From Pseudomonas sp. WJP1 (GTDB lineage: Bacteria; Pseudomonadota; Gammaproteobacteria; Pseudomonadales; Pseudomonadaceae), in NCBI RefSeq assembly GCF_028471945.1, contig NZ_CP110128.1, forward strand, positions 2,840,501 through 2,904,500: 64,000 bases of DNA, given 5' to 3'. Below the pieces are notes generated by a model. That model was not told the DNA's origin and did no database searches. It saw nothing but the letters and a program-made list of their open reading frames with translations. The position numbers were made by a program, and so were the translations under genes. Of the stretch, positions 34,563 through 49,768 are shown piece after piece (within the stretch, counting starts at the first letter, position 1; each line of letters begins with the position of its first letter).

Positions 34563-35615
34563 ATGCAGCAGAACGAATCTTTAAACAGCGGTTGGATGAT
34601 GCCCGCCGAGTGGGCCAGGCACGCCGCGACCTGGATGGTCTGGCCGCATAACAAGGCACTCTGGGAGTCGGGATGGGGCGTCACGCTGCCATTGGTTCAG
34701 GAAGACTTCGCTCGCGTTGCCAACGCCATTGCCCGTTTTGAACCGGTAAAAATGGTCGTCGACCCGTCGGCGGTCGCCAGTGCCGAACGCTTGTGTGGTC
34801 CCAACATCGAATTGATCGAACTGGCGGTGAACGACAGTTGGTGCCGCGACTCCGGCCCGAGCTTCGTTTGCCATCCGCAACAGGGCCTGGCCGGCGTGAG
34901 CTGGCGTTTCAACGCCTGGGGCGGCAAGTCGGCACATGAGCTGGACGAAGGCCTGGCGCGCCGCGCACTCAATCGCCTGGGGCTGCCGTGCTTCGGCACA
35001 CCCCTGAGCAATGAAGGCGGTGCCATTCATGTCGACGGGGAGGGTACGCTGATCACCACCGAGTCGGTCTTGCTCAACCCCAATCGCAACCCGGGCATGA
35101 ACAAGGCGGAGATGGAGGAGATCTTTGCCCGCCTGCTGGGGGTGAAAAAGACCATCTGGTTGCCGGGCGATCCAGACTATGTCACCGGTGACATGACTGA
35201 CGGCCATGTCGATGGCGTTTGCGCCTTCGCCCGACCTGGCGTGCTGCTGGTAGACGCCACCCACGACCGGCAGTCGGTGTATGCAGAAGTGGCCCGCGAA
35301 AACCGCCGTGCCCTGGAGTTGGCCACCGATGCGCGAGGCCGCAGGTTCGAACTGATCGAACTGTATGAGGCCAGTGAGGCGGTGGACACCGAGGCGCAAG
35401 TGTTCTGCGCTTCCTACACCAACTTCTACATCGCCAACGGCGCCATCATCATGCCGGCCTATGGCATCGAGGCGGACAACGCGGCGGCCGAAGTGTTGGT
35501 GCAGGCATTCCCCGGACGCGAGGTGGTGCCGGTGCGCATCAACCACCTGGCCCATGGTGGCGGCGGGGTGCATTGCATCACCCAGCAGCAACCTGCCTGG
35601 CCGGTGGAGGGTTGA
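34563..35615 (+). CDS. aguA: agmatine deiminase
   Basis: A 350-residue protein of the pentein fold. Motifs are MPAEWARHAATWMVWP at the start, NDSWCRDSGPSF (Asp), LSNEGGAIHVDGEGT, MTDGHVDGVCAF (His), and the nucleophilic Cys338 in AHGGGGVHCITQQQP. It hydrolyses agmatine to N-carbamoylputrescine and ammonia. It is followed at once by aguB. The divergent regulator is LysR-type rather than AguR, as in a second, separately controlled agu set. Confidence 0.93.
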   Translation: MQQNESLNSGWMMPAEWARHAATWMVWPHNKALWESGWGVTLPLVQEDFARVANAIARFEPVKMVVDPSAVASAERLCGPNIELIELAVNDSWCRDSGPSFVCHPQQGLAGVSWRFNAWGGKSAHELDEGLARRALNRLGLPCFGTPLSNEGGAIHVDGEGTLITTESVLLNPNRNPGMNKAEMEEIFARLLGVKKTIWLPGDPDYVTGDMTDGHVDGVCAFARPGVLLVDATHDRQSVYAEVARENRRALELATDARGRRFELIELYEASEAVDTEAQVFCASYTNFYIANGAIIMPAYGIEADNAAAEVLVQAFPGREVVPVRINHLAHGGGGVHCITQQQPAWPVEG

Positions 35616-35619
35616 TGCC

Positions 35620-36528
<909 letters not shown>

Positions 36529-36529
36529 T

Positions 36530-37636
36530 ATGCACGCTTCCCATAAACACCTGCTCACTGCCCTGGGGTTTTCCCTGTGCTGCGTCGTCGTGCCGTCGCT
36601 GCACGCCGAGGAGAAAACCCTGCGGCTTTACAACTGGGCCGACTATTTTGCCGAGGACACCCTGAGCCGCTTCACCGCCGAAACCGGGATCAAGGTGATC
36701 TACGACGTCATGGATGGCAGCGAGACGCTGGAGGCCAAAATGCTCGCTGGTGGCAGCGGCTATGACCTGATCTTCCCCGGCGACACCGTGGCCGAACGCT
36801 TGATGCGCGCCGGTAGCCTGCAGCCGCTGGACCGCTCGAAACTCACGGAAGTGGACGACATCGAACCCGGCTTGCAGAAACTGCGCGCACATTACGAGCA
36901 CGCCAGCCAGGCCACCGTCCCTTATACTTGGGGCACCATCGGCCTGACCTACAATGCCGAGCAAATCCGGCAGCGCCTGCCAGATGCGCCGGTCAACAGC
37001 CTGGACATGCTGTTCAAGCCCGAACTGGCGGCGCGGTTTGCCGATTGCGGCATCTCGGTGATCGACTCGCCGGACGAAGTGCTGGCTGTGGTGCTCAACT
37101 ACCTGGGCCGGGAGCCGCGCAGCGCCAAACCGCAAGACCTGGAGGCGGCGAGCCAATTGCTGCTCAAGTTGCGACCGTACATTCGCAAATTCCAGTCGCA
37201 GCCGGTGACCGACCTGGTCAATGGCAACCTGTGCCTGTCGCTCGGCTACAGCGGCGACATGACCCAGGCACAACGAACGGCCGATTCGGCCGGGAAGAAA
37301 TCCGTGTTCCAGTACCGCATTCCCCTCGAAGGCACGACGGTCTGGATGGACACCATGGCCATTCCGGTCGATGCCAGGCATCCGGAGTATGCCTATGCGT
37401 TCATCAACTTCGTCATGCGCCCGCAGAACATGGCTGCCATCAGCAACTTCACCGGCTATCCCACCTCCAACGCCAAGGCGCGACCGGACGTCGATGCGAG
37501 CATGCGCAACAACCCCGATATCTACATCGACGAGGCCACGTATGCGCGGTTGATTCCTGGCAAGGATATCCCCCAGGCGGACATGCGGGCGCGCATGCGT
37601 ACCTGGACCAAGTTCAAGACAGCCACCGCCCGATGA
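36530..37636 (+). CDS. polyamine ABC substrate-binding protein (PotF-type), agu-linked
   Basis: A 368-residue periplasmic protein with a signal peptide (cut after SLHA). The mature part starts EEKTLRLYNWADYF; later VPYTWGTIGLTYN and SLGYSGDMTQAQR match the PotF/SpuD/SpuE family, where Trp and Asp residues cage the amine. It starts 1 nt after the aguB stop. No permease or ATPase accompanies it, so it probably docks on another polyamine importer such as the one at 56945-59879. Putrescine or agmatine is the likely ligand. Confidence 0.88.
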   Translation: MHASHKHLLTALGFSLCCVVVPSLHAEEKTLRLYNWADYFAEDTLSRFTAETGIKVIYDVMDGSETLEAKMLAGGSGYDLIFPGDTVAERLMRAGSLQPLDRSKLTEVDDIEPGLQKLRAHYEHASQATVPYTWGTIGLTYNAEQIRQRLPDAPVNSLDMLFKPELAARFADCGISVIDSPDEVLAVVLNYLGREPRSAKPQDLEAASQLLLKLRPYIRKFQSQPVTDLVNGNLCLSLGYSGDMTQAQRTADSAGKKSVFQYRIPLEGTTVWMDTMAIPVDARHPEYAYAFINFVMRPQNMAAISNFTGYPTSNAKARPDVDASMRNNPDIYIDEATYARLIPGKDIPQADMRARMRTWTKFKTATAR

Positions 37637-39154: not shown

Positions 39155-40002
39155 ATGAAGAAGATTTGGAAGGCAATCTGCGCAGTCGCTGTAGCGGGCA
39201 TGATGTGTTTACCCGTTCATGCAGAAGAAAAACCATCACCATGGGCACATTATCCTGGGAAGACTTGACGCCTATTACCGGTATCACCAAGAAAGTACTT
39301 GAAGATTCTGGTTACACGGTGAAAGTCATTGAGTTTTCCGAGTGGGGCATTGCTTACGCTGCACTGAGCAAAGGCGACATTCAGATCCTCACTTCCCAGA
39401 CCGACTATGCGGCGCACGACTACTGGAACAAGAACAAGAACCGTCTGGAAAAACTGTCCCCGGTGTCCTTCGGGCTTTACCAGGGTTTTGCCGTTCCCAA
39501 GTATGTTGATATCGACTCGATCGACCAGCTGAACGACAACGCCGACAAGCTGGGCGGCAAGATCGTCGGCATCGAGCCCGGGTCTGGCCTGATGAGTGAT
39601 GCCACCAACGCCGTCAGCGGCTACGGTCTCAAGCTCAAACTGCTGGAAGGCAGTACCGCTGCGATGACCGCCGCCTTGAAATCGGCAGTCGATCGTAAAG
39701 AGCCGGTTGTCGTAACGATTTGGGAACCGTCTTGGATGGTGCAAAAGTTTGACCTGAAGTTCCTCAAGGATCCAAAAGCCATTTTCCCTCCAGCACAGGG
39801 TTACTACTGGATTGGTCATAAAGGCTTCTCGGCAGAGTACCCGAAAGCGCGCGAAGTGATCGCAAGCGTATACGTGCCCCTGGGCGATATCACGGCGATC
39901 AACAGCGAAGTGAAGGATGGCAAGACCATGGATCAGGCCATTCAAGACTGGACAGTTAAAAACGCTGAGCTGTTGAAGCGTTGGGAAAACATCAAGAAAT
40001 AA
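39155..40002 (+). pseudogene. quaternary amine/proline ABC substrate-binding protein, frameshifted
   Basis: ATG 39155 (GAGGAAGG upstream) opens a good signal peptide, MKKIWKAICAVAVAGMM to VHAEEK, but this frame stops soon after. The mature protein continues in a different frame: TITMGTLSWEDLTPITGI onward to the stop at 40002. One A appears to be missing from the A-run near 39228-39232. The mature part is an OpuAC-type binding protein (LTSQTDYAAHDYW; VVTIWEPSWMVQKF with cage Trp; YYWIGHKGF). As written, no exported protein is made. Real mutation, sequencing error or slippage are all possible. Confidence 0.85.
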
Positions 40003-40079
40003 ACAGCGTCTCTTTTCTTCGCCACTGCCGCCCTTTGATTCAATAGAGAAACCAGAAAACTGGTTCACGGGTTATAAAA

Positions 40080-41198
40080 ATGACAACGGCCAAAATTGAC
40101 ACCAACGAAGTGCTGATAGATTGCCAGTCAGTCTGGAAAATCTTCGGTAAAGCCGCGCCTGCAGCGATGAATGCCGTCGTTCAGCAGGGGCTGACCAAGA
40201 CTCAGATCCTGCAAAACTACGGTTGCGTGGTCGGCGTCTCCGACGTCAGTCTCCAGGTTCGCCGAGGAGAAATCTTCTGCATCATGGGCTTGTCCGGCAG
40301 TGGCAAATCTACCCTCATCAGGCTTTTGAACAAGCTCATCACGCCCAGTGCCGGCAAGATCGTGGTCAAGGGCAAAGAGCTCTCTTCCTTGAATGCAGCG
40401 CAGCTGCGAGAGGTGAGGGCGCGTCATATCGGCATGGTCTTTCAAAGCGTGGCACTGCTGCCTAACCGCACGGTCCTGGAAAACACCGCGTTTGGCCTGG
40501 AAGTGCAGGGCGTCGGCAAGGCCGAGCGTTACAAGGTGGCCGAGCAGGCCTTGGCCAAGGTTGGCCTGAGTGACTGGATGTCGCGATATCCCACTGAGCT
40601 GTCAGGCGGTATGCAACAACGTGTCGGCCTTGCACGGGCGATCACGGCGGACCCTGAAGTGATCCTGATGGACGAGCCGTTCAGTGCGCTTGACCCCCTG
40701 ATTCGTCGACAGCTGCAGGATGAATTCCGCCAGCTGACCAAGGAGCTGGGCAAGTCGGCGGTGTTCATCACCCACGACCTAGACGAAGCGATTCGCATCG
40801 GCGACCGCATCGCGATCATGAAAGACGGCGCGATCATTCAAGTCGGTACGGCCGAGGAGATCGTGCTCAATCCGGCTGACGACTACGTCGCGGAGTTTGT
40901 GGCGGGCATTTCCAGGTTGCATCTGGTGCGGGCGCATTCGGTCATGACACCGGTCGAACCGTTCAAAGTGGCGAACCCGGGCTGTGACATCGCCCGACTC
41001 CCGAAAACCACACCCGATGCCGACATCAACGAGCTCATCGGATTGACCATGAAGTCCGAGCGCGATGCCCTTGCCGTGGTGGATAACGGAACGGTAGTCG
41101 GCATCATCACACCACGTGACCTGCTGCGCGGCGTTCAAGGCATTCCGAACGAATTCGCGCAGGCGCCTGCCGGCACGGTTCTGGAGGCGTCGACATGA
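40080..41198 (+). CDS. quaternary amine/proline ABC ATP-binding protein (ProV/OpuAA type)
   Basis: A 372-residue ATPase. Walker A is GLSGSGKST (residues 70-78), the signature is LSGGMQQRVGLARA, and Walker B is VILMDEPFSALD. A C-terminal region of about 100 residues has a CBS-like segment (ALAVVDNGTVVGIITPRDLL), as in osmoprotectant importers that sense ionic strength. The N-terminal insert (QGLTKTQILQNYG) is typical of the ProV group. It lies 77 bp after the binding-protein gene and overlaps the first permease by 4 bp. Confidence 0.9.
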   Translation: MTTAKIDTNEVLIDCQSVWKIFGKAAPAAMNAVVQQGLTKTQILQNYGCVVGVSDVSLQVRRGEIFCIMGLSGSGKSTLIRLLNKLITPSAGKIVVKGKELSSLNAAQLREVRARHIGMVFQSVALLPNRTVLENTAFGLEVQGVGKAERYKVAEQALAKVGLSDWMSRYPTELSGGMQQRVGLARAITADPEVILMDEPFSALDPLIRRQLQDEFRQLTKELGKSAVFITHDLDEAIRIGDRIAIMKDGAIIQVGTAEEIVLNPADDYVAEFVAGISRLHLVRAHSVMTPVEPFKVANPGCDIARLPKTTPDADINELIGLTMKSERDALAVVDNGTVVGIITPRDLLRGVQGIPNEFAQAPAGTVLEAST

Positions 41199-42043
41199 GC
41201 ATCCCTGACTTTTCCAATCAATTCGACGCGGTCATCGACTCGAGCCTTGAATGGCTGATGGACAACGGCGAGTTTGTGTTCGACACGGCCAATACGGCGT
41301 TGAAGGGAATTTTTGAAGGCGTGCAATGGTGCATTGCCTATCCACCGTATTACGTCATCGCGATCGTCATGGCCCTGATTGGCTGGCGCGCTGTGGGAGT
41401 ACGCTTTGCGATTCTTACCGGTTTAGCGTTGTTGTTCTGTGACGTCATTGGCTTGTGGCCGGAAACCGTCAGTACCCTTGCCTTGGTGCTGACCGCCACC
41501 GTGCTCGCGCTGGTAGTAGCCATACCCCTGGGTGTGCTGGCAGGGCTCGCTCCGTCCTTTGATCGAGTGGTGGATCCGTTCCTGGATCTGGTGCAAACCA
41601 TGCCGCCCTACATCTACCTGCTTCCAGCCATCGCGCTGCTGGGTTATGGCACTGCCACCGCACTGTTGGCGACCTTTATCGTTGCCGTGCCGCCCGCCAT
41701 GCGCCTGACCTCCCTGGGGATTCGAATGACGCCCAAGGAATTCATCGAGCTAGGGGAGGCCAGCGGCGTCACCGGGTGGCAGATGTTCTTCAAGATCCGC
41801 TTGCCGTTCGCCATGCCCAGCATCATGGCAGGAGTGAACCAAAGCCTGATGATGGCCTTCGGCATGGTGGTGATCGCCGGCATCGTCGGTTCAGGCGGCC
41901 TGGGTGAATCGATCTACGGCGCCGTTCGCACACTGGACATCGCCAAGTCGATCAACGCGGCCATTGCCATCGTGATCCTGACCATGATCCTCGATCGATT
42001 GGCGCAGAGCGCTGCGCGGTCCCGGATGGGAGACTCCCAATGA
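41195..42043 (+). CDS. quaternary amine/proline ABC permease (1)
   Basis: A 282-residue ProW/OpuAB-type permease with about six hydrophobic segments. Its EAA loop is KEFIELGEASGVTGWQMFFK. The VQTMPPYIYLLPAIALLGYG and GSGGLGESIYGA stretches are family-typical. It overlaps both neighbours by 4 bp, so the importer is one translationally coupled unit. Confidence 0.9.
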   Translation: MSIPDFSNQFDAVIDSSLEWLMDNGEFVFDTANTALKGIFEGVQWCIAYPPYYVIAIVMALIGWRAVGVRFAILTGLALLFCDVIGLWPETVSTLALVLTATVLALVVAIPLGVLAGLAPSFDRVVDPFLDLVQTMPPYIYLLPAIALLGYGTATALLATFIVAVPPAMRLTSLGIRMTPKEFIELGEASGVTGWQMFFKIRLPFAMPSIMAGVNQSLMMAFGMVVIAGIVGSGGLGESIYGAVRTLDIAKSINAAIAIVILTMILDRLAQSAARSRMGDSQ

Positions 42044-42891
42044 GTACTGCAGAAATCCATTTCTCTCCTGGTGAATTCCTCGCGCCTGCGGTCGATTGGC
42101 TGAACGCTAATTTGCATGGGTTGTTCAAGGTCATCAGCCAGGTTATCGAAGCCGTACTCGGCGGCGTCGAAGGGGCGCTGCTGGCGCCGCATCCCTACGC
42201 CATGATCGGCGGTGTGGCGTTGCTGGCGTTCTTTTTCGCCAACAAGAAAGTGGCGGTGTTTTCTGCCTTGATGTTGGCATTTTGCTTGTTCTCCGGGCTT
42301 TGGGTGGCGTCGATGCAAACCATCGCGCTGGTCTCGGTGGCCGTGCTGATCTCCGTCGCCATCGCGTTTCCGCTCGGTGTGCTTGCCGCGCGTGTAAAGA
42401 AGGTGGATGACGCATTCCTGCCGATCCTCAACATCATGCAGACCGTTCCGCCTTGGGTTTACCTGATTCCCGCGGTGATGCTGTTCAGCCTGGGTCGCGT
42501 GCCGGCAATCATCGCCACCATCGTCTACGGCATTCCGCCGATGCTCAGGCTGACGACCCTGGCCTTCAAGCAACTGCCCAAGGAGTTCCTTGAGCTGGGG
42601 CAGGCTATCGGCGCTTCGCCCAGGGCGATCCTGTTCAAGATCGAGTTGCCGACTGCCGCACCGACGCTGCTGGTGGGGCTCAACCAATGCATTCTGCTGT
42701 CTTTGGCGATGGTGGTTCTGGCGGGCCTGGTGGGTGCTGGCGGACTTGGCGCCGAAGTGACCCGCGGCCTCACCCGGATGGAGATGGGCTTGGGTCTTCG
42801 TGCGGGCCTGGCGATTGTCGCGGTGGCACTGCTGCTGGATCGGCTGTCGCGCGGCGCGTTGCAGCGTCATTCCCCACGCAAACTGGTTTAG
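42040..42891 (+). CDS. quaternary amine/proline ABC permease (2)
   Basis: A 283-residue permease paralogous to the preceding one (MQTVPPWVYLIPAVML; KEFLELGQAIGASPRAILFK; GAGGLGAEVTRGL). Two different ProW-like permeases per system are usual in Pseudomonas betaine-type importers. The racemase-family gene follows after 11 bp. Confidence 0.9.
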   Translation: MSTAEIHFSPGEFLAPAVDWLNANLHGLFKVISQVIEAVLGGVEGALLAPHPYAMIGGVALLAFFFANKKVAVFSALMLAFCLFSGLWVASMQTIALVSVAVLISVAIAFPLGVLAARVKKVDDAFLPILNIMQTVPPWVYLIPAVMLFSLGRVPAIIATIVYGIPPMLRLTTLAFKQLPKEFLELGQAIGASPRAILFKIELPTAAPTLLVGLNQCILLSLAMVVLAGLVGAGGLGAEVTRGLTRMEMGLGLRAGLAIVAVALLLDRLSRGALQRHSPRKLV

Positions 42892-42902
42892 GGATTTTCA
42901 GA

Positions 42903-43901
42903 ATGAGACGTAGCTTTTTTTGTGTGGACTCCCATGCGTGCGGGAACCCGGTGCGGGTAGTGACAGGCGGCGGGCCGCTGTTGCCCTCCGTTTCGATGGC
43001 GGAACGCCGAGACATCTTCGTGCGTGATCATGACTGGATTCGCACCGCGTTGATGTTCGAGCCCCGGGGCCATGACGTGATGTCGGGGGCGATCATCTAT
43101 CCCTCCACGCGGGATGACTGCGATTTTGGCGCATTGTTCATCGAAGTCAGTGGCTGCCTGCCCATGTGTGGCGCCGGCACCATCGGCATGTCCACCGTGG
43201 TGATCGAGGAAGGCCTGGTCACACCGCGCGAACCTGGCACGCTGGCCATCGAGACGCCTGCCGGGCGAGTCGACGTGGCCTACACCATGAGCGGCGAATA
43301 CGTTGACTCGATTCGCCTGTTCAACGTCGCCAGTTACCTGCACAGCGCCGATGTGGTGGTAGAGGTGCCCGGTGTCGGTGAGCTGGTCGTGGACATCGCT
43401 TACGGCGGCAATTTCTACGCGGTGGTCGAGCCGCAGGAAAACTGGGCTGGCCTGCAAGGCTTGACCAGCGCCGAGATCGTTGGCCTGAGCCAGAAATTGC
43501 GCGCGGCCCTGGCTGAAGTCAGTGACCCGGTGCATCCCGAGAACAGCAGGATCAGCGGCGTTCACCATGTCATCTGGTGCGACGACGGACACACGCTGGC
43601 GGCCGATGGTCGCGGCGCAGTGTTCTACGGCGACAAGGCCATTGACCGGTCTCCCGGTGGCACCGGTACTTCTGCGCGAATGGCGCAGTTGTTCGGCAAG
43701 GGTCGGTTGAAGGTGGGGGAGACGTACCGCAACGAAAGCCTGATCGGGACGATCTTTGAAGGGAAGGTCGAAGCGGCGGTCAAGGTCGGAGCCTACGAGG
43801 GTATCCGGCCGAGCATCGGTGGCTGGGCGCAGATCACCGGGCACAACACCATTTTTGTCGACGACCGCGACCCCCTGCGCCATGGCTTTCAGTTGGCTTG
43901 A
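42903..43901 (+). CDS. proline racemase/4-hydroxyproline epimerase family protein with altered active site
   Basis: A 332-residue protein starting at ATG 42903. The overall match is to 4-hydroxyproline 2-epimerases (VDSHACGNPVR; LMFEPRGHDVMSG; VDIAYGGNFYAVVEP; TGHNTIFVDDRDP). The first catalytic cysteine is kept (Cys89 in LPMCGAGTIG), but the next-but-one residue is Ala91 where His is usual. The second catalytic cysteine position is Gly252 (DRSPGGTGTSARM), where Cys is expected for epimerases and Thr for trans-3-hydroxyproline dehydratases. Two-base racemisation is thus unlikely; a one-base reaction is possible. Its operon context remains hydroxyproline-like. Confidence 0.8.
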   Translation: MRRSFFCVDSHACGNPVRVVTGGGPLLPSVSMAERRDIFVRDHDWIRTALMFEPRGHDVMSGAIIYPSTRDDCDFGALFIEVSGCLPMCGAGTIGMSTVVIEEGLVTPREPGTLAIETPAGRVDVAYTMSGEYVDSIRLFNVASYLHSADVVVEVPGVGELVVDIAYGGNFYAVVEPQENWAGLQGLTSAEIVGLSQKLRAALAEVSDPVHPENSRISGVHHVIWCDDGHTLAADGRGAVFYGDKAIDRSPGGTGTSARMAQLFGKGRLKVGETYRNESLIGTIFEGKVEAAVKVGAYEGIRPSIGGWAQITGHNTIFVDDRDPLRHGFQLA

Positions 43902-43934
43902 TGTGTTCTCGAACGTAACAGGGTAGATCGACCC

Positions 43935-44948
43935 GTGATCGAACGACGCCAATTTAGCGGAGGCATGAAGGGGAAAAATCTTCGCTATCTCAATGACAAC
44001 CCCAACGCCATGGCGCGAACGGTGCGAGCAGGCTTCCTGCTGCTCGAGCACTTTTCGCTCCCGGCATTCACGCAAGTGCTGGATACGCTGGTCACGGCCA
44101 ATCTTCTGCGACCCCAGCTGTTCACCACCCGCACGTTCGGCATGAGCGACGGTGAGGTGGTCAGCGACCTGGGCCTGGTCATCCGGCCAGATAGCCAGAT
44201 CGATTGCGCAGCGATCAAGGAGCTGGACCTGCTGGTGATCTGCGGTGGCTACCGCACGGAACTGAAGGCGTCGGAGGAGCTGACCGGCCTGCTCGCAAAA
44301 GCCGCCGAGCTGGGCGTCAGCCTGGCCGGCTTGTGGAATGGCGCCTGGTTCCTGGGGCGCGCGGGTTTGCTCGAGGGTTATCGCTGCGCCGTGCACCCCG
44401 AACATCGCCCGGCGCTGGCGGAGTTCTGCAAGGCGACGCAGGTCAGTAGCGAGCCCTACGTGATCGATCGGGACCGGCTCACCGCGTCCAGCCCGTCGGG
44501 GGCCTTCCACATGGCGCTGGACTGGATCAAGGGCCTGCATGACAAAGCGCTGGTCGAGGGCATCGAGGACATCCTCGCGTTTGAGGAATCTCGCTACCGA
44601 CGGATAAAACCGGCGGAAAACATCTGCGTGAGTGCGCCGTTGCGTGAGGTGGTGAAGCTGATGGACGCCAACCTGGAAGAGCCCCTGGAGTTGGAGCAAC
44701 TGGCGGTTTACGCCGGGCGATCGCGCCGACAACTCGAGCGTTTGTTCAGGGAGCAACTGGGTACCACGCCACAGCGTTATTACATGGAATTGCGCATTAC
44801 CGAGGCACGACGGCTGCTCCAGCACACGGAGTTGTCCCAGGTCGAGGTGCTCGTGGCCTGTGGCTTCGTTTCGCCGAGCCACTTCAGCAAGTGCTACAGC
44901 TCGTATTTTGGTTATCGGCCCTCCAAGGAAGTCAGGCTGGTGAAATAG
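43935..44948 (+). CDS. GlxA-family AraC-type transcriptional regulator
   Basis: A 337-residue paralogue of the 3912-4922 protein, very similar throughout (SLPAFTQVLDTLVTANLLRP; LAGLWNGAWFLGRAGLL; AraC domain with CGFVSPSHFSKCY). Start is GTG 43935, equivalent to the TTG of the other copy. It is 33 bp after the racemase-family gene and transcribed with it. Relatives control betaine, carnitine and similar catabolic genes, so it probably senses the substrate or an intermediate of this block. Confidence 0.87.
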   Translation: MIERRQFSGGMKGKNLRYLNDNPNAMARTVRAGFLLLEHFSLPAFTQVLDTLVTANLLRPQLFTTRTFGMSDGEVVSDLGLVIRPDSQIDCAAIKELDLLVICGGYRTELKASEELTGLLAKAAELGVSLAGLWNGAWFLGRAGLLEGYRCAVHPEHRPALAEFCKATQVSSEPYVIDRDRLTASSPSGAFHMALDWIKGLHDKALVEGIEDILAFEESRYRRIKPAENICVSAPLREVVKLMDANLEEPLELEQLAVYAGRSRRQLERLFREQLGTTPQRYYMELRITEARRLLQHTELSQVEVLVACGFVSPSHFSKCYSSYFGYRPSKEVRLVK

Positions 44949-44975
44949 CCGGCCCTCAAAGTTAGTATATTAATT

Positions 44976-45026
44976 GTAGACACAAAGAATAATGCTGTTT
45001 TATAGTGATAATACAGGTAGTAGACA
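44976..45026. promoter_or_regulatory. repeated GTAGACA motif before gntR-type gene
   Basis: GTAGACA occurs at 44976-44982 (inside TTGT-AGAC-ACAA, a 12-base dyad) and again at 45020-45026. The two copies are 44 bp apart, about four helical turns, in the AT-rich promoter region of the GntR gene. An autoregulatory operator is a reasonable guess. Confidence 0.35.
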
Positions 45027-45054
45027 ACGCTCACTTACCCGTAAGGTTTCCATC

Positions 45055-45777
45055 ATGGCAACGAAAGATCTCGAATCCCAAGCTTCCTCCGAACTGCCTG
45101 TTGACCGTAAGGCCGTACTGGGAGAGACGCTGCGGCGCCGTATCCTGAGCATGGAGCTGGCGCCCGGTGCCGTCGTTGACGAGCTGGCCTTGTGTGACGA
45201 ATTCGGACTTTCCCGTCCCCCGGTGCGCGAGCTGATGCGCCAGATGGCTGCTGAAGGCTATATCGACCTTGAAGCGAACCGGGCCGCCCGGGTGTCGTCG
45301 ATGAACTATCAATCGCTGCGCAGCTTTTTCCTGGCGGCCCCCTTGATCTACATCGCGACCACCCAACTGGCCGCCACGCACGCGAGGCCATCGGAGATTG
45401 CCGAGCTCAAGCGCATCCAGGAATGTTTCCGCGAAGCCATCGAGGAAAAGGATGTCGAGAAACGCGTGCTGTACAACGATGAATTCCATTTGCAGATCGG
45501 CAAGATGGCGCATAACGCTTATTTGATGCCGAGCCTGCAGCGTTTGTTGATCGACCATGCACGCCTGGGGAAGATCTTTTATCGCCACCCAACGACCGTC
45601 GATATGCAGGAAGACCTGAAGTTGGCGACCCAGCAGCATGACGAAATGATCGCCGCTATTGAAAACCATGATCCGGCCCAGGCGGGCGATATCGTGCGGG
45701 CGCACCTTGAACTGTCGCGCCGCCGGATGTCCGAATACGCCGCACCGGAAGGGTTGGAAGTCGCCATTAATTTTTGA
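45055..45777 (+). CDS. GntR family (FCD-type) transcriptional regulator
   Basis: A 240-residue protein starting at ATG 45055 (TAAGG upstream); the earlier in-frame start is unsupported. The N-terminal winged HTH includes LRRRILSMELAPGAVVDE and FGLSRPPVRELMRQMAAEGY. The C-terminal all-helical FCD domain has NDEFHLQIGKMAHN and QHDEMIAAIENHD, with the Asp/His positions that usually hold a metal and a carboxylate ligand. It lies between the GlxA regulator and the FAD oxidase, and is likely a local repressor. Confidence 0.87.
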   Translation: MATKDLESQASSELPVDRKAVLGETLRRRILSMELAPGAVVDELALCDEFGLSRPPVRELMRQMAAEGYIDLEANRAARVSSMNYQSLRSFFLAAPLIYIATTQLAATHARPSEIAELKRIQECFREAIEEKDVEKRVLYNDEFHLQIGKMAHNAYLMPSLQRLLIDHARLGKIFYRHPTTVDMQEDLKLATQQHDEMIAAIENHDPAQAGDIVRAHLELSRRRMSEYAAPEGLEVAINF

Positions 45778-45803
45778 TAGGCCGCCGGTTCTACTTGCAT
45801 AAG

Positions 45804-45870
45804 CACTTCACATGAAGTGATTTGATCGATGCAGACGGGCGGCTTATAGCACTATAAAAAACCCGGGTTT
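45804..45870. promoter_or_regulatory. two palindromes upstream of the FAD oxidoreductase
   Basis: CACTTCA-CA-TGAAGTG (45804-45819) is a perfect 7-bp dyad and a good operator candidate for the neighbouring regulators. AAACCCGGGTTT (45859-45870) is a perfect 12-base palindrome only 5 nt before the ATG, in the place where a ribosome site would be expected. No Shine-Dalgarno sequence is visible. Confidence 0.45.
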
Positions 45871-45875
45871 CGACA

Positions 45876-47195
45876 ATGGCAAAGATCAGATACACACCGG
45901 CAGATGATTCTACTTGCGGCTGGTTTCACCTTAGCCAGCCCAGGGTGGCCCGTGCGTCCCACTCTGGCAACCGCTCGGCCCGCTGGGTCGTGGTGGGTGC
46001 TGGTTTCACCGGACTTGCGGCGGCGCGTCAGCTGGCGCTGAATTTTCCTGATGACGAGATCGTGCTGATCGAGGCCCAGGAAGTGGGTTATGGCGCCTCC
46101 GGAAGAAACGCCGGCTTCGCCATTGACCTGCCACACGATATCGGCGCTGACGACTATATCGGTGATATCAAGACCGCCAAAATCAGCATGGAATTGAACC
46201 TGATGGGTCAATCCATTTTGAAAGATCTCGTTGAAAAACACCGCATCGACTGTCAGTTTCGCCTGTGCGGAAAGTATCAGGCCGCCATCGAGAACAGAGG
46301 CATAGCGGTGCTGGATGCCTACCGTCGTGGCCTGGACAAGCTGGGCCAGGAATACCAGGTGATCGAAGAACAGGACTTGCCGAACCACATCGGCACGCAC
46401 TTCTATCGCAAGGCCCTGTTTACCCCGGGCACGGCCCTGATCCAGCCCGCGGCACTGGTCAAGGGCCTGGCCGACAGCTTGCCCGCCAACGTCACGCTTT
46501 ACGAAAACACCCCGATTACCGGCGTCGAGTACGGCGATAAAACCATTCTGACCCACAGCGCCGGTCGTATCGTTGCGGACAAACTGCTCCTGACCAACAA
46601 CGCGTTCGCCATGAGCTTCGGCTTTTTGAAGGGGCGCATGCTGCCGATTTTCACTTACGCGAGCCTGACCCGACCGCTGACGGAGCAAGAGCAGGCGCGA
46701 TTGGGTGGCTTGCCTTATTGGGGCGTGATTCCCGCTGATCCTTTTGGCACGACCTTGCGCCGCACAACCGACAATCGCCTGCTGGTGCGCAACAGCTTCA
46801 GTTTCAATGCCGATGGCCGCAGTCATCAGAAGTACCTGCAGCGGTTCAAACGACGGCACATAGAGTCTTTCGAACGCCGCTTCCCGATGCTCCCCGAGGT
46901 CAATTTCGAATACACCTGGGGCGGTTCGCTGGCGTTGTCCAGAAATCACATGGCGCACTTCGGCCAGCTGGCAAACAACGTCTATGGCGCCCTGTGTTGC
47001 AACGGGCTGGGTGTTACCCGGGGAACGGTGACGGGCACATTGCTGGCCGACTGGCTGGCGGGCAAAAAGAGTCATCTCACGGACTTTCTCCTGTCCTCCC
47101 CGGGGCCGAACAGAAACCCGCCTGAGCCGATCCTTTCAGCGGGCGTCAATATGAACTTGCTGTGGGGTCAATGCCGGGCAGGAAGGGAAAGCTGA
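45876..47195 (+). CDS. FAD-dependent oxidoreductase (DAO family)
   Basis: A 439-residue flavoprotein with the dinucleotide motif VVVGAGFTGLAAARQ (residues ~38-52), GYGASGRNAGFAIDL shortly after, and a late WGGSLALSRNHM and CCNGLGVTRGT. It belongs to the glycine oxidase/D-amino-acid dehydrogenase/PuuB-like group. In a hydroxyproline-type route it would oxidise the D-imino acid to the pyrroline; gamma-glutamylputrescine oxidase-like activity is an alternative. No ribosome site is evident. Confidence 0.83.
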   Translation: MAKIRYTPADDSTCGWFHLSQPRVARASHSGNRSARWVVVGAGFTGLAAARQLALNFPDDEIVLIEAQEVGYGASGRNAGFAIDLPHDIGADDYIGDIKTAKISMELNLMGQSILKDLVEKHRIDCQFRLCGKYQAAIENRGIAVLDAYRRGLDKLGQEYQVIEEQDLPNHIGTHFYRKALFTPGTALIQPAALVKGLADSLPANVTLYENTPITGVEYGDKTILTHSAGRIVADKLLLTNNAFAMSFGFLKGRMLPIFTYASLTRPLTEQEQARLGGLPYWGVIPADPFGTTLRRTTDNRLLVRNSFSFNADGRSHQKYLQRFKRRHIESFERRFPMLPEVNFEYTWGGSLALSRNHMAHFGQLANNVYGALCCNGLGVTRGTVTGTLLADWLAGKKSHLTDFLLSSPGPNRNPPEPILSAGVNMNLLWGQCRAGRES

Positions 47196-47372
47196 TCAAG
47201 TAACAACTTATAGATAACCCAGTAATTAAAACCATTGATTGGAAGTTTTTAGTTCTATTGGCGCGTCCATGGAGGCTGATTGTTTCTGGTCGAGACGGTT
47301 TTCGTTCACCCGGATTTTGGGTTTTCGTTAGCCGCTGAGTTGAAAACATCCCTGACAGTTGGAGAGCAAATC

Positions 47373-48278
47373 ATGAAATTCGAAGGCATCTACACCCCGG
47401 CAATCACGCCCCTGACCGCCAGCGGTGACATCGACAAAGCGGCATTCGCCGAAGTGCTCGAGTACCTGATCGAGTCCAAGGTGCACGGCATCATCATCGG
47501 TGGCTCCACCGGTGAGTACTACGCCCATACCTCGCAGGAGCGCATCGAGCTGGCGACCCAGGCCAAGGACGTCATCGGCACACGCTTGCCCCTGGTGATC
47601 GGCACCGGCGCCATCCGCACCGAAGACTCGGTCGAATACGCCAAGGCCGCCCGCGCCATCAAGGCCGATGCCATCCTGGTGGGTTCGCCGCCGTACGCGC
47701 TGCCGACCGAAAAAGAAAACGCCATCCACGCGTTGACCGTCGACCGTGCCGCCGACCTGCCGATCATGCTCTACAACTACCCGGCGCGCATGGGCGTGAG
47801 CATGGGCCCGGAGTATTTCGCCGCGGTGGCCGAGAGCAAGAACATCGTCGCCATCAAGGAAAGCTCCGGCGACATGGCCCAGGTGCACCGCCTGGCGCGG
47901 GACTACCCGAACATCAGCCTGTCCTGCGGCTGGGATGACCAGGCCCTGGAGTTCTTCGCTTGGGGCGCGCGCAGCTGGGTGTGTGCCGGCTCGAACTTCA
48001 TCCCGCGCGAGCACGTGGCCTTGTATGAAGCCTGCGTGGTGGAAAAGGACTTCGATAAAGGCCGCAAGATCATGAGTGCCTTCATGCCCCTGATGGACTT
48101 CCTGGAAAGCGGCAAGTTTGTCCAGTCGATCAAGGTGGGTTGCGAGTTGAACGGCCTGCGCACCGGCAGTGTGCGTTCGCCGCTGCAGCCGATGTACGAG
48201 CACGAAAAACAGGCCCTGCAGGAGATCATCACCACGCTGAAACGTGAGGTCGCCCAGGTGACCGGGAGCGCAAAATGA
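47373..48278 (+). CDS. DapA-family (dihydrodipicolinate synthase-like) aldolase/deaminase
   Basis: A 301-residue TIM-barrel protein starting at ATG 47373 (GGAGAG upstream). The Schiff-base lysine is Lys162 in IVAIKESSGD and the conserved tyrosine is Tyr134 in IMLYNYPAR; GGSTGEYY covers the carboxylate-binding loop. In hydroxyproline catabolism a DapA-family enzyme deaminates 1-pyrroline-4-hydroxy-2-carboxylate to 2-oxoglutarate semialdehyde, and the order of genes here fits that step. It overlaps the dehydrogenase gene by 4 bp. Confidence 0.85.
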   Translation: MKFEGIYTPAITPLTASGDIDKAAFAEVLEYLIESKVHGIIIGGSTGEYYAHTSQERIELATQAKDVIGTRLPLVIGTGAIRTEDSVEYAKAARAIKADAILVGSPPYALPTEKENAIHALTVDRAADLPIMLYNYPARMGVSMGPEYFAAVAESKNIVAIKESSGDMAQVHRLARDYPNISLSCGWDDQALEFFAWGARSWVCAGSNFIPREHVALYEACVVEKDFDKGRKIMSAFMPLMDFLESGKFVQSIKVGCELNGLRTGSVRSPLQPMYEHEKQALQEIITTLKREVAQVTGSAK

Positions 48279-49768
48279 CTGGCCTTCTCAGCGCGGCTGA
48301 ATACGCCGCCATTGCCCGGGAATTGAAGTTCCCGACCCGCTCCTTCGTCAATGGCGAGGCCTACATCTCGTTGTCGGGCAACACCTTCACCACGACCAAT
48401 CCGGCGACCGATGAAGTGCTGGCCGAGATCACCGCCTGCAATGCCCAGGACGTTGACTTCGCCGTGGCCAAGGCCAAGGCGGCCTTTGAAGACGGTCGCT
48501 GGCACAAGCTGAGCCCCGGCGAGCGCAAGAAAGTGCTGTTGCGCTTTGCCGACCTGGTGGAGCAGAACGCCCACGAGCTGGCGGTGCTGGAAAGCCTGGA
48601 CAGCGGCAAGCCGGTGCGCGAATGCCAACTCACGGATGTGCCGGAAACCATTCACACCCTGCGTTGGCATGCCGAGCTGATCGACAAGATCTACGACAAC
48701 ACGGCACCGGTCGGCAACGGCGCCTTGACCCTGGTGGTGCGTGAAGCCATCGGTGTGGTCGGCCTGGTGCTGCCGTGGAACTTCCCGCTGCTGATGCTGG
48801 CCTGGAAGATCGGCCCGTCCCTGGCCGCCGGTTGCTCGATCATCGTCAAGCCGGCCAAGGAAACCACCCTGACCGCGTTGCGGGTCGCCGAGCTGGCGTT
48901 CGAAGCCGGTGTACCGGCCGGTGTGTTCAACGTGCTGTCCGGCGGTGGCGGTGAAGTCGGGGAGCCGCTGGGCCGGCACATGGACGTGTCGATGGTCAGC
49001 TTCACCGGTTCCACGGCGACTGGGCGGCGCTTCCTCAACTATGCGGCGGATTCCAACCTCAAGCGCATCGTGCTGGAGTGCGGCGGCAAGAACCCGGCCG
49101 TGGTCATGAAGGACGTGGCAGACCTCGACTCGGTCGCCAGCCACGTGGTCAACGGCGCGTTCTGGAACATGGGCGAAAACTGCTCCGCCTCCTCGCGCCT
49201 GATCGTGCATGCCGACATCAAGGACGAACTGCTCAAGCGCATCGGCGTGCAGATGCTGGAATGGAAAATGGGCAGCCCCCTGGACCCGGAAAACCGCCTG
49301 GGCGCCATGGTCAGCCGGGCGCATTACGAGAAAGTCCGCTCCTACCTCGAGCAGGCTGGCCTCGAGAAACTGCGGGTGGTGTTCGGCGGCAACACCCAGG
49401 GCGACATCTTCGTCGAGCCTACCGTGGTCGATGGCGTGGGCACCGATAGCAAGCTGTTCCAGGAGGAGATCTTCGGCCCGGTGCTCGCCGTCACGACCTT
49501 CACCACCCTCGACGAAGCCATCACCCTGGCTAATGACTCGGTGTATGGCCTGGCGGCCTCGGTCTACACCGACAACCTGCGCCACGCCATCAAGCTGTCG
49601 CGTGAAATCCGCGCCGGCATCGTCACGGTCAACTGCTTCGGTGAAGGCGATGCCTCGACACCGTTTGGCGGGTACAAGGAGTCCGGGTTTGGCGGGCGCG
49701 ACAAGTCCATCTGGGCGCACGATCAGTACACCGAGATCAAGACGATCTGGATTGATGCTTCTGAGTAA
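48275..49768 (+). CDS. NAD(P)-dependent aldehyde dehydrogenase of the hydroxyproline-type block
   Basis: A 497-residue ALDH: PWNFPLLMLAWKIGPSLA, FTGSTATGRRFL, LECGGKNPAVVM with the catalytic Glu, and nucleophile Cys in NMGENCSASSRL. It resembles PuuC-type gamma-glutamyl aminobutyraldehyde dehydrogenases. Translationally coupled to the DapA-family gene (ATGA overlap), it would oxidise the semialdehyde formed there; 2-oxoglutarate semialdehyde is the best guess. Confidence 0.88.
   Translation: MTGLLSAAEYAAIARELKFPTRSFVNGEAYISLSGNTFTTTNPATDEVLAEITACNAQDVDFAVAKAKAAFEDGRWHKLSPGERKKVLLRFADLVEQNAHELAVLESLDSGKPVRECQLTDVPETIHTLRWHAELIDKIYDNTAPVGNGALTLVVREAIGVVGLVLPWNFPLLMLAWKIGPSLAAGCSIIVKPAKETTLTALRVAELAFEAGVPAGVFNVLSGGGGEVGEPLGRHMDVSMVSFTGSTATGRRFLNYAADSNLKRIVLECGGKNPAVVMKDVADLDSVASHVVNGAFWNMGENCSASSRLIVHADIKDELLKRIGVQMLEWKMGSPLDPENRLGAMVSRAHYEKVRSYLEQAGLEKLRVVFGGNTQGDIFVEPTVVDGVGTDSKLFQEEIFGPVLAVTTFTTLDEAITLANDSVYGLAASVYTDNLRHAIKLSREIRAGIVTVNCFGEGDASTPFGGYKESGFGGRDKSIWAHDQYTEIKTIWIDASE

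Follow-up and report, generated by a model that had tools for sequence, protein, structure and literature searches.

What does a set of hydroxyproline-type catabolic enzymes do behind an importer of quaternary amines? The question is raised by a ten-gene block at positions 39155-49768 of a 64,000-nucleotide stretch of Pseudomonas sp. WJP1 (contig NZ_CP110128.1, positions 2,840,501 to 2,904,500; hereafter the window). The window covers 2.84-2.90 Mb of a genome that forms one 7.0 Mb contig and whose nearest named relatives are Pseudomonas. Domain and NCBIfam searches revealed genes for ProX, ProV, ProW, ProW, a proline-racemase-family protein, GlxA, GntR, an FAD oxidase, DapA, and an aldehyde dehydrogenase (ALDH), in that order and all on the + strand. 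An earlier, sequence-only reading of the window had named these genes, their position and their single strand, and all were borne out. Based on the gene content, its conservation, a change in an active site and the gene neighbourhoods, all of which were observed directly, we infer that the block may be a catabolic unit converting N-methylated 4-hydroxyproline (hydroxyproline betaine or N-methyl derivatives) to 2-oxoglutarate. Of the substrate classes considered, this one is the best supported, and we consider the case for it and for these reactions evenly balanced.

The active site in question is that of the racemase-family enzyme (42903-43901; residue 1 at codon 42906). The Pro_racemase domain (PF05544) spans the whole protein, residues 1-325 of 325 (E 5.3e-126), which places it in the proline racemase superfamily, and NCBIfam names it 4-hydroxyproline epimerase (548 bits; cut-off 376). 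As the sequence-only reading had noticed, the active site is altered: MCGHG is replaced by MCGAG and DRSPC by DRSPG, such that Cys88/Ala90/Gly251 stand in place of Cys88/His90/Cys251. Searches of 5.8 billion proteins were made with this protein and with an ordinary 45% relative, and the best 120 of about 8000 matches were listed for each query. In the alignments, Cys/Ala/Gly was present in 120/120 of the homologs listed for the window protein, and Cys/His/Cys in 119/120 of those listed for the ordinary relative. The remaining ordinary-clade homolog, P0220, is Cys/His/Gly; its second cysteine is gone and its histidine unchanged. The agreement of all 120 listed homologs at these positions indicates an inherited class, and damage or sequencing error was rejected on the same ground.

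Among 297 genomes of the genus, Cys/Ala/Gly occurred in 17, including this one, and Cys/Ala/Cys in one further genome; in G149, a 63% match confined to residues 52-247 was left outside the residue classification. In a 53-row tree, the main Cys/Ala/Gly clade comprised 27 rows with a support of 95/91. Its neighbour group, in which several forks are open, mixes Cys/Ala/Gly, Cys/Ala/Cys, and Cys/His/Cys members, which suggests more than one origin of Gly251. One 61% relative (L024, G277:C1:464854-465774) has TGA at the codon of the catalytic cysteine and keeps the histidine and second cysteine, in a match without the first 23 residues; this codon may represent either selenocysteine or a pseudogene. 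Selenocysteine in ordinary Pseudomonas epimerases was considered and rejected: in those inspected, the TGA flags were the normal end stop, and L024 was the sole instance at the cysteine codon.

Ring-recognition sites of the hydroxyproline type, Ser60, His221, and Tyr241, were found in the window protein by alignment and our own site mapping, which puts Ala at position 241 in the ordinary 45% relatives; the criteria (Ser/Val, His, Cys/Tyr) were taken from PMC4364671 and PMC1964878. Of the two bases that face C-alpha in 4-hydroxyproline epimerases (4HypE), Cys/Cys or Ser/Cys, the protein has Cys88 with Gly251 at the second position, as do all 120 listed homologs. With this Cys/Gly pair, it scored below the cut-offs of the NCBIfam dehydratase models. 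The consulted part of PMC4364671 names the catalytic-pair types Cys-Cys, Cys-Thr, Ser-Cys, and Ser-Thr. According to the excerpted PMC4113996, superfamily clusters without one or both cysteines exist, and the 51 proteins assayed possibly include a Cys/Gly one, a pair unnamed in the main text as excerpted. A figure legend of that paper indicates that the ring nitrogen is held by His90 and Asp232 and that the first catalytic residue serves the trans-to-cis direction. The window enzyme would keep the base for the L substrate and the recognition of hydroxyproline and would lack one nitrogen contact and the opposite base, a combination that would fit an N-substituted 4-hydroxyproline. Quite tentatively, the Cys/Ala/Gly proteins could represent a separate catalytic class of the proline racemase superfamily, with a single cysteine base acting on N-methylated hydroxyproline, and could give rhizobia and pseudomonads a second route for hydroxyproline betaine that does not depend on an enolase. 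Searches of the openly licensed literature turned up no paper on a Cys/Gly member; they were not worded for that pair, and absence from print is not claimed.

The block recurs in relatives. The neighbourhoods compared were those of 80 of 99 confirmed homologous loci, from named genomes, together with the window (81 in all). At least L135, L138, and L141 are Cys/His/Cys, the catalytic residues having been read in part of the 80; thus, these are relatives' loci, not all of them Cys/Gly. Because several loci stop early at contig ends, neighbour counts are lower bounds, and the open reading frame caller missed the racemase gene in 7/81. Over the 81 loci, the families were represented as follows: ProW 72, ALDH 72, DapA 70, ProV 69, ProX 67, a 448-residue FAD oxidase (DAO2) 59, and GntR 57; GlxA occurred in 66, as two sub-families of 45 and 21. 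Relatives of ProX, ProV, ProW, DapA, and ALDH adjoin 67-73 of the 80-81 homologous loci, and the gene set was found in alpha-, beta-, and gamma-proteobacteria. The commonest order was GntR-DapA-ALDH-DAO2-ProX-ProV-ProW-ProW-racemase-GlxA, with the racemase gene flanked by ProW and GlxA in most of the loci inspected. As controls, we used 20 ordinary 4-hydroxyproline epimerase loci from this genus alone, chosen from the upper part of the 36-41% matches; these contained none of the cluster families at the thresholds used, with weaker ATPase and ALDH matches present.

Genes for N-demethylation frequently lie beside the relatives' clusters. A Rieske oxygenase was present within 10 kb in 34/81 loci. 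Rieske, old yellow enzyme (OYE)-type or formaldehyde genes lay within 10 kb of 9/25 Pseudomonas loci and 26/55 other loci, versus 0/20 ordinary epimerase loci (p = 0.0025 for Pseudomonas alone); loci with such genes number 34 or 35 of 80, depending on the threshold. The formaldehyde dehydrogenase label in Pseudomonas is our assumption, Pfam giving a zinc alcohol dehydrogenase; the 9/25 would stand without it, each of those loci having a Rieske gene too. For both Rieske sub-families searched, 3vca/3vcp/5hl4 and 4qup (titled demethylase) were among the three best PDB matches (E 1.3e-147 and 5.5e-104); we take 3vca to be the stachydrine demethylase Stc2. The two sub-families, from L072 (Pseudomonas) and L101 (Rhizobium), are about 40% identical and stand beside the same cluster, which makes repeated recruitment of the oxygenase probable. 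By hand count, the Pseudomonas-type Rieske (at least 73%) was present in 7/17 genomes with the Cys/Ala/Gly racemase and 42/280 without it. The statement in the sequence-only reading that a Rieske demethylase is lacking therefore stands for the block itself and fails for the cluster family, as a Rieske gene lies beside 34/80 relatives' loci.

The OYE-type flavoprotein shows a similar association. The Rhizobium genomes compared numbered 120: of the 61 with the racemase, 57 had an OYE of at least 87% identity, as had 20 of the 59 without. These counts are uncorrected for kinship, and racemase matches were counted by E-value, their catalytic residues unread. In this genus, an OYE of at least 81% was present in 8/9 genomes with DAO2; G024, which has a Cys/Ala/Gly racemase apart from the cluster and no OYE, was left out of this count. 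On plasmid pRL12 of R. johnstonii 3841, the order is an OYE-type gene (an NADH:flavin oxidoreductase), an electron-transfer flavoprotein (ETF), S-(hydroxymethyl)glutathione dehydrogenase, fghA, gfa, GntR-DapA-ALDH-FAD oxidase-ProXVWW-racemase-GlxA, and then an FAD-binding oxidoreductase and a ring-hydroxylating oxygenase. This island also holds a second betaine-type importer and a P5CR-like gene.

With respect to uptake, the importer genes encode the components of an OpuA/ProU quaternary-amine importer: a ProX/OpuAC-type binding protein (39155-40002; OpuAC domain E 1.7e-62), a ProV-type ATPase with a CBS domain (40080-41198), and two ProW-type permeases with BPD_transp_1 domains (41195-42043 and 42040-42891). 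Trp 18, 74, and 173 of ProX (numbering of the 39205 translation) are kept in 70/70 aligned ProX rows and align with, or adjoin, tryptophans of the OpuAC structure 3l6g. They may form an aromatic cage for an ammonium group. At a short A run near 39228, the reading frame of ProX shifts: the signal peptide (ATG 39155) is encoded in one frame and the mature part, open to 40002, in another, whereas both lie in a single frame in 5/5 relatives printed. The shift may be either a real break or an assembly error; the remark in the sequence-only reading that the binding protein would need repair was justified.

The remaining genes comprise two regulators and three enzymes. The regulators are a GlxA-type AraC protein (43935-44948; DJ-1/PfpI and HTH_18), which is GbdR-like (NCBIfam GbdR 234.6 bits, below the cut-off of 480), and a GntR/FCD protein (45055-45777). 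The FAD oxidase, DAO1 (DAO family; 45876-47195), had L-pipecolate oxidase as its best NCBIfam model, below cut-off, and gave one weak match in the PDB by phmmer. The DapA-family enzyme (DHDPS domain; 47373-48278), a proposed ring-opening deaminase/dehydratase, had dihydrodipicolinate synthases as its best PDB matches. For the ALDH (Aldedh domain; 48275-49768), a proposed 2-oxoglutarate semialdehyde dehydrogenase, the best NCBIfam models were PuuC and aminobutyraldehyde/betaine-aldehyde dehydrogenases, all below cut-off. Upstream of the block (34563-37636), the translations of several genes resemble by eye an agmatine deiminase, an N-carbamoylputrescine amidase and a polyamine-binding protein.

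The window is of a minority type: DAO1, about 34% identical to DAO2, replaces the latter in a GntR-DAO1-MFS-DapA-ALDH cassette (MFS, major facilitator superfamily). DAO1 (E <= 1e-180) was found in 11/79 genomes of the genus. Of ten DAO1-DapA-ALDH cassettes outside racemase loci, four had ProXVWW and GlxA, three had a Rieske gene and an OpuAC importer, and three had no OpuAC importer. In G019, G072, and G034, all Pseudomonas, an Stc2-like Rieske, an OpuAC binding protein, ProV/ProW, and GlxA accompany DAO1-DapA-ALDH and no racemase, the ALDH frame being broken in G034. No racemase-family gene was detected in twelve DAO1 stretches outside racemase loci (best E 4.1). Plasmids of Acinetobacter and Klebsiella also carry the cassette; no racemase gene is annotated in the part inspected, for which the gene table is incomplete. 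Thus, the oxidase-DapA-ALDH trio accompanies quaternary-amine uptake in 7/10 cassettes even without the racemase, which may therefore widen or redirect the pathway.

Elsewhere in this genome, at 4.68 Mb, the cassette of the window recurs as a second copy. The DapA-ALDH segment (47340-49768) is 97.8% identical to this copy, as compared to 81% for the GntR-DAO1 part, and the seam coincides with the site of the absent MFS gene, which is present in relatives and in the second copy. Recent recombination between the copies would explain both the contrast in identity and the loss of the MFS gene at the seam. The second copy adjoins genes whose NCBIfam models include carnitine 3-dehydrogenase, below cut-off. 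Importer and catabolic block had been described in the sequence-only reading as fused; the genes are separate, and by comparison the modules differ in history. One fixed operon was likewise rejected, as the modules combine freely among the loci compared.

In the proposed pathway, ProXVWW would import a quaternary amine, as its family and tryptophan residues suggest. In relatives, Stc2-like Rieske and OYE-type enzymes would remove N-methyl groups; in this genome, demethylation would be performed by some other enzyme, or not at all. The Cys/Ala/Gly enzyme would act on C-alpha of the 4-hydroxylated ring; the loss of His90 and the second cysteine would probably let it accommodate or handle an N-substituted ring. 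The last three steps are modelled on the known pathway: the FAD oxidase would form a pyrrolinium or imine, the DapA-type enzyme would open the ring with loss of the amine and the 4-hydroxyl, and the ALDH would yield 2-oxoglutarate.

Several observations weigh against N-methylated 4-hydroxyproline as the substrate. No demethylation gene lies within 10 kb in 45-46/80 loci, some of which stop early. Among NCBIfam models, both Rieske kinds come closest to the glycine betaine monooxygenase GbcA, below its cut-off (503 and 409 bits; cut-off 670), so the sequence does not single out hydroxyproline betaine, and the relatives' Rieske enzymes could act on glycine betaine or proline betaine instead. In this genome, the Pseudomonas-type Rieske query gave one match (E 3.1e-120), at the GbcA-like level common in the genus (E <= 1e-110 in 280/297 genomes, about 45% identical where shown), the Rhizobium type not having been sought; the OYE search reached 42% identity at best, with no close OYE. 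Either another enzyme demethylates here, or the oxidase takes the N-methyl ring directly with methylamine freed at the DapA step, or the substrate here is not N-methylated. Across the genus, the OYE was present in 0/7 Pseudomonas without DAO2, one of which, G117, shows no DAO1 in its stretch either. A demethylase role for the OYE is our assumption, while its PDB matches are enoate reductases and amine dehydrogenases, and the co-occurrence is confounded by kinship. Two genes annotated as dimethylsulfoniopropionate (DMSP) lyase (L157 and L159) lie between the OYE-type gene, ETF, and formaldehyde genes of pRL12, so that island may serve several onium compounds. Four ProXVWW-GlxA-GntR-oxidase-MFS-DapA-ALDH clusters, in G067, G009, G024, and G025, lack the racemase. 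The DapA and ALDH of the window are 25-26% like their counterparts in the ordinary hydroxyproline locus of this genome. Finally, position 90 is Ser rather than His in some working superfamily enzymes, according to the excerpted PMC4113996.

That ordinary locus bears on another account, in which the block is a second pathway for hydroxyproline in its free form, with a free isomer imported, epimerised as usual by the racemase-family enzyme and then degraded along the known route. We consider this improbable, though well short of negligible. It would agree with the NCBIfam epimerase name, which scores above its cut-off, with the hydroxyproline signature residues, and with the genome having no Rieske beyond the common level; ProU-type systems, moreover, also take proline. 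However, the locus at 3.16-3.18 Mb already holds a Cys/Cys epimerase, 37% identical to the window racemase, alongside a Ser/Thr member (30%), the DapA and ALDH mentioned above, and, by eye, a polar-amino-acid ABC importer and an oxidase. As judged from sequence, the window block is distinct from the ordinary hydroxyproline pathway, whose genes appear to sit there. Demethylation genes adjoin the relatives as well, and in the consulted part of PMC1964878, serine substitution of either cysteine of PaHyPRE abolished epimerisation. Epimerisation cannot be restricted to Cys/Cys enzymes, given a Ser/Cys epimerase in the excerpted PMC4113996 and a superfamily member, PA1255, reported as a dehydratase and 2-epimerase in the excerpted PMC5144071, where its catalytic pair was not seen.

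The racemase-free clusters named above, together with the Acinetobacter and Klebsiella cassettes, would also suit a pathway that starts with the FAD oxidase acting on the imported compound itself, the racemase-family protein handling a side isomer or being catalytically silent, as would the L-pipecolate oxidase model of the oxidase. Such an arrangement is unlikely: the same altered site in 120/120 listed homologs and the gene's constant place next to ProW on one side and GlxA on the other in most of the loci inspected argue that the racemase gene is under selection. Another cyclic amine, such as pipecolate betaine, a cis-4-hydroxyproline or an undescribed compound, with DapA a lyase of another kind, is highly improbable in our estimation. 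The divergence of DapA and ALDH from the ordinary-locus enzymes, the dihydrodipicolinate synthase matches and the ALDH models would be in keeping with it, whereas the hydroxyproline recognition residues and the parallel of oxidase-DapA-ALDH to the hydroxyproline route speak against it. The sequence-only reading was upheld on several points: the enzyme set resembles that for hydroxyproline, the importer is of the quaternary-amine class, the first enzyme is altered, and the block is separate from the ordinary pathway, as the Cys/Cys epimerase locus elsewhere in the genome attests. Its undescribed cyclic amine is not needed: the Stc2-like Rieske and reductase, formaldehyde genes, and OYE-type flavoprotein of relatives point to N-methylated 4-hydroxyproline, a class of compound already known.

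N-methylated hydroxyproline is an osmoprotectant of plants. The named homologs among the best 120 are labelled 4-hydroxyproline epimerase or proline racemase, though they lack one of the two defining catalytic cysteines. Were they to act on N-methylated hydroxyproline, the label would be wrong, the proteins would embody a new active-site solution in a model acid/base superfamily, and the use of this osmoprotectant for carbon and nitrogen could be predicted in rhizobia and pseudomonads.

Known systems share parts of this scheme. The trans-4-hydroxy-L-proline pathway, as described in the consulted parts of PMC4113996 and PMC5144071, clusters the same four enzyme superfamilies (4HypE, D-hydroxyproline oxidase, Pyr4H2C deaminase, and KGSA dehydrogenase). 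Unlike that pathway, the window has an OpuAC-type importer, a Cys/Ala/Gly racemase, and a DapA and ALDH remote from those of its own ordinary locus, and its relatives have N-demethylation genes. A hydroxyproline betaine pathway with an enolase-family epimerase, HpbD, is said to have been described by Zhao in 2013 and Kumar in 2014. The proposed quaternary-amine uptake, demethylation and hydroxyproline endgame resemble it; the cluster differs in having a proline-racemase-family protein. No enolase-family gene is annotated in R. johnstonii pRL12 548000-595453 or present among the ten window-block proteins, and five MR_MLE_C genes lie elsewhere in the genome, outside that check. The stachydrine catabolism of Sinorhizobium involves the Rieske enzyme Stc2 and the N-methylproline demethylase StcD. 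The relatives' clusters resemble that system in having Rieske enzymes with Stc2 structures among their best PDB matches and, in some, an adjoining OYE-type flavoprotein, and depart from it in an endgame of DapA and ALDH rather than proline oxidation.

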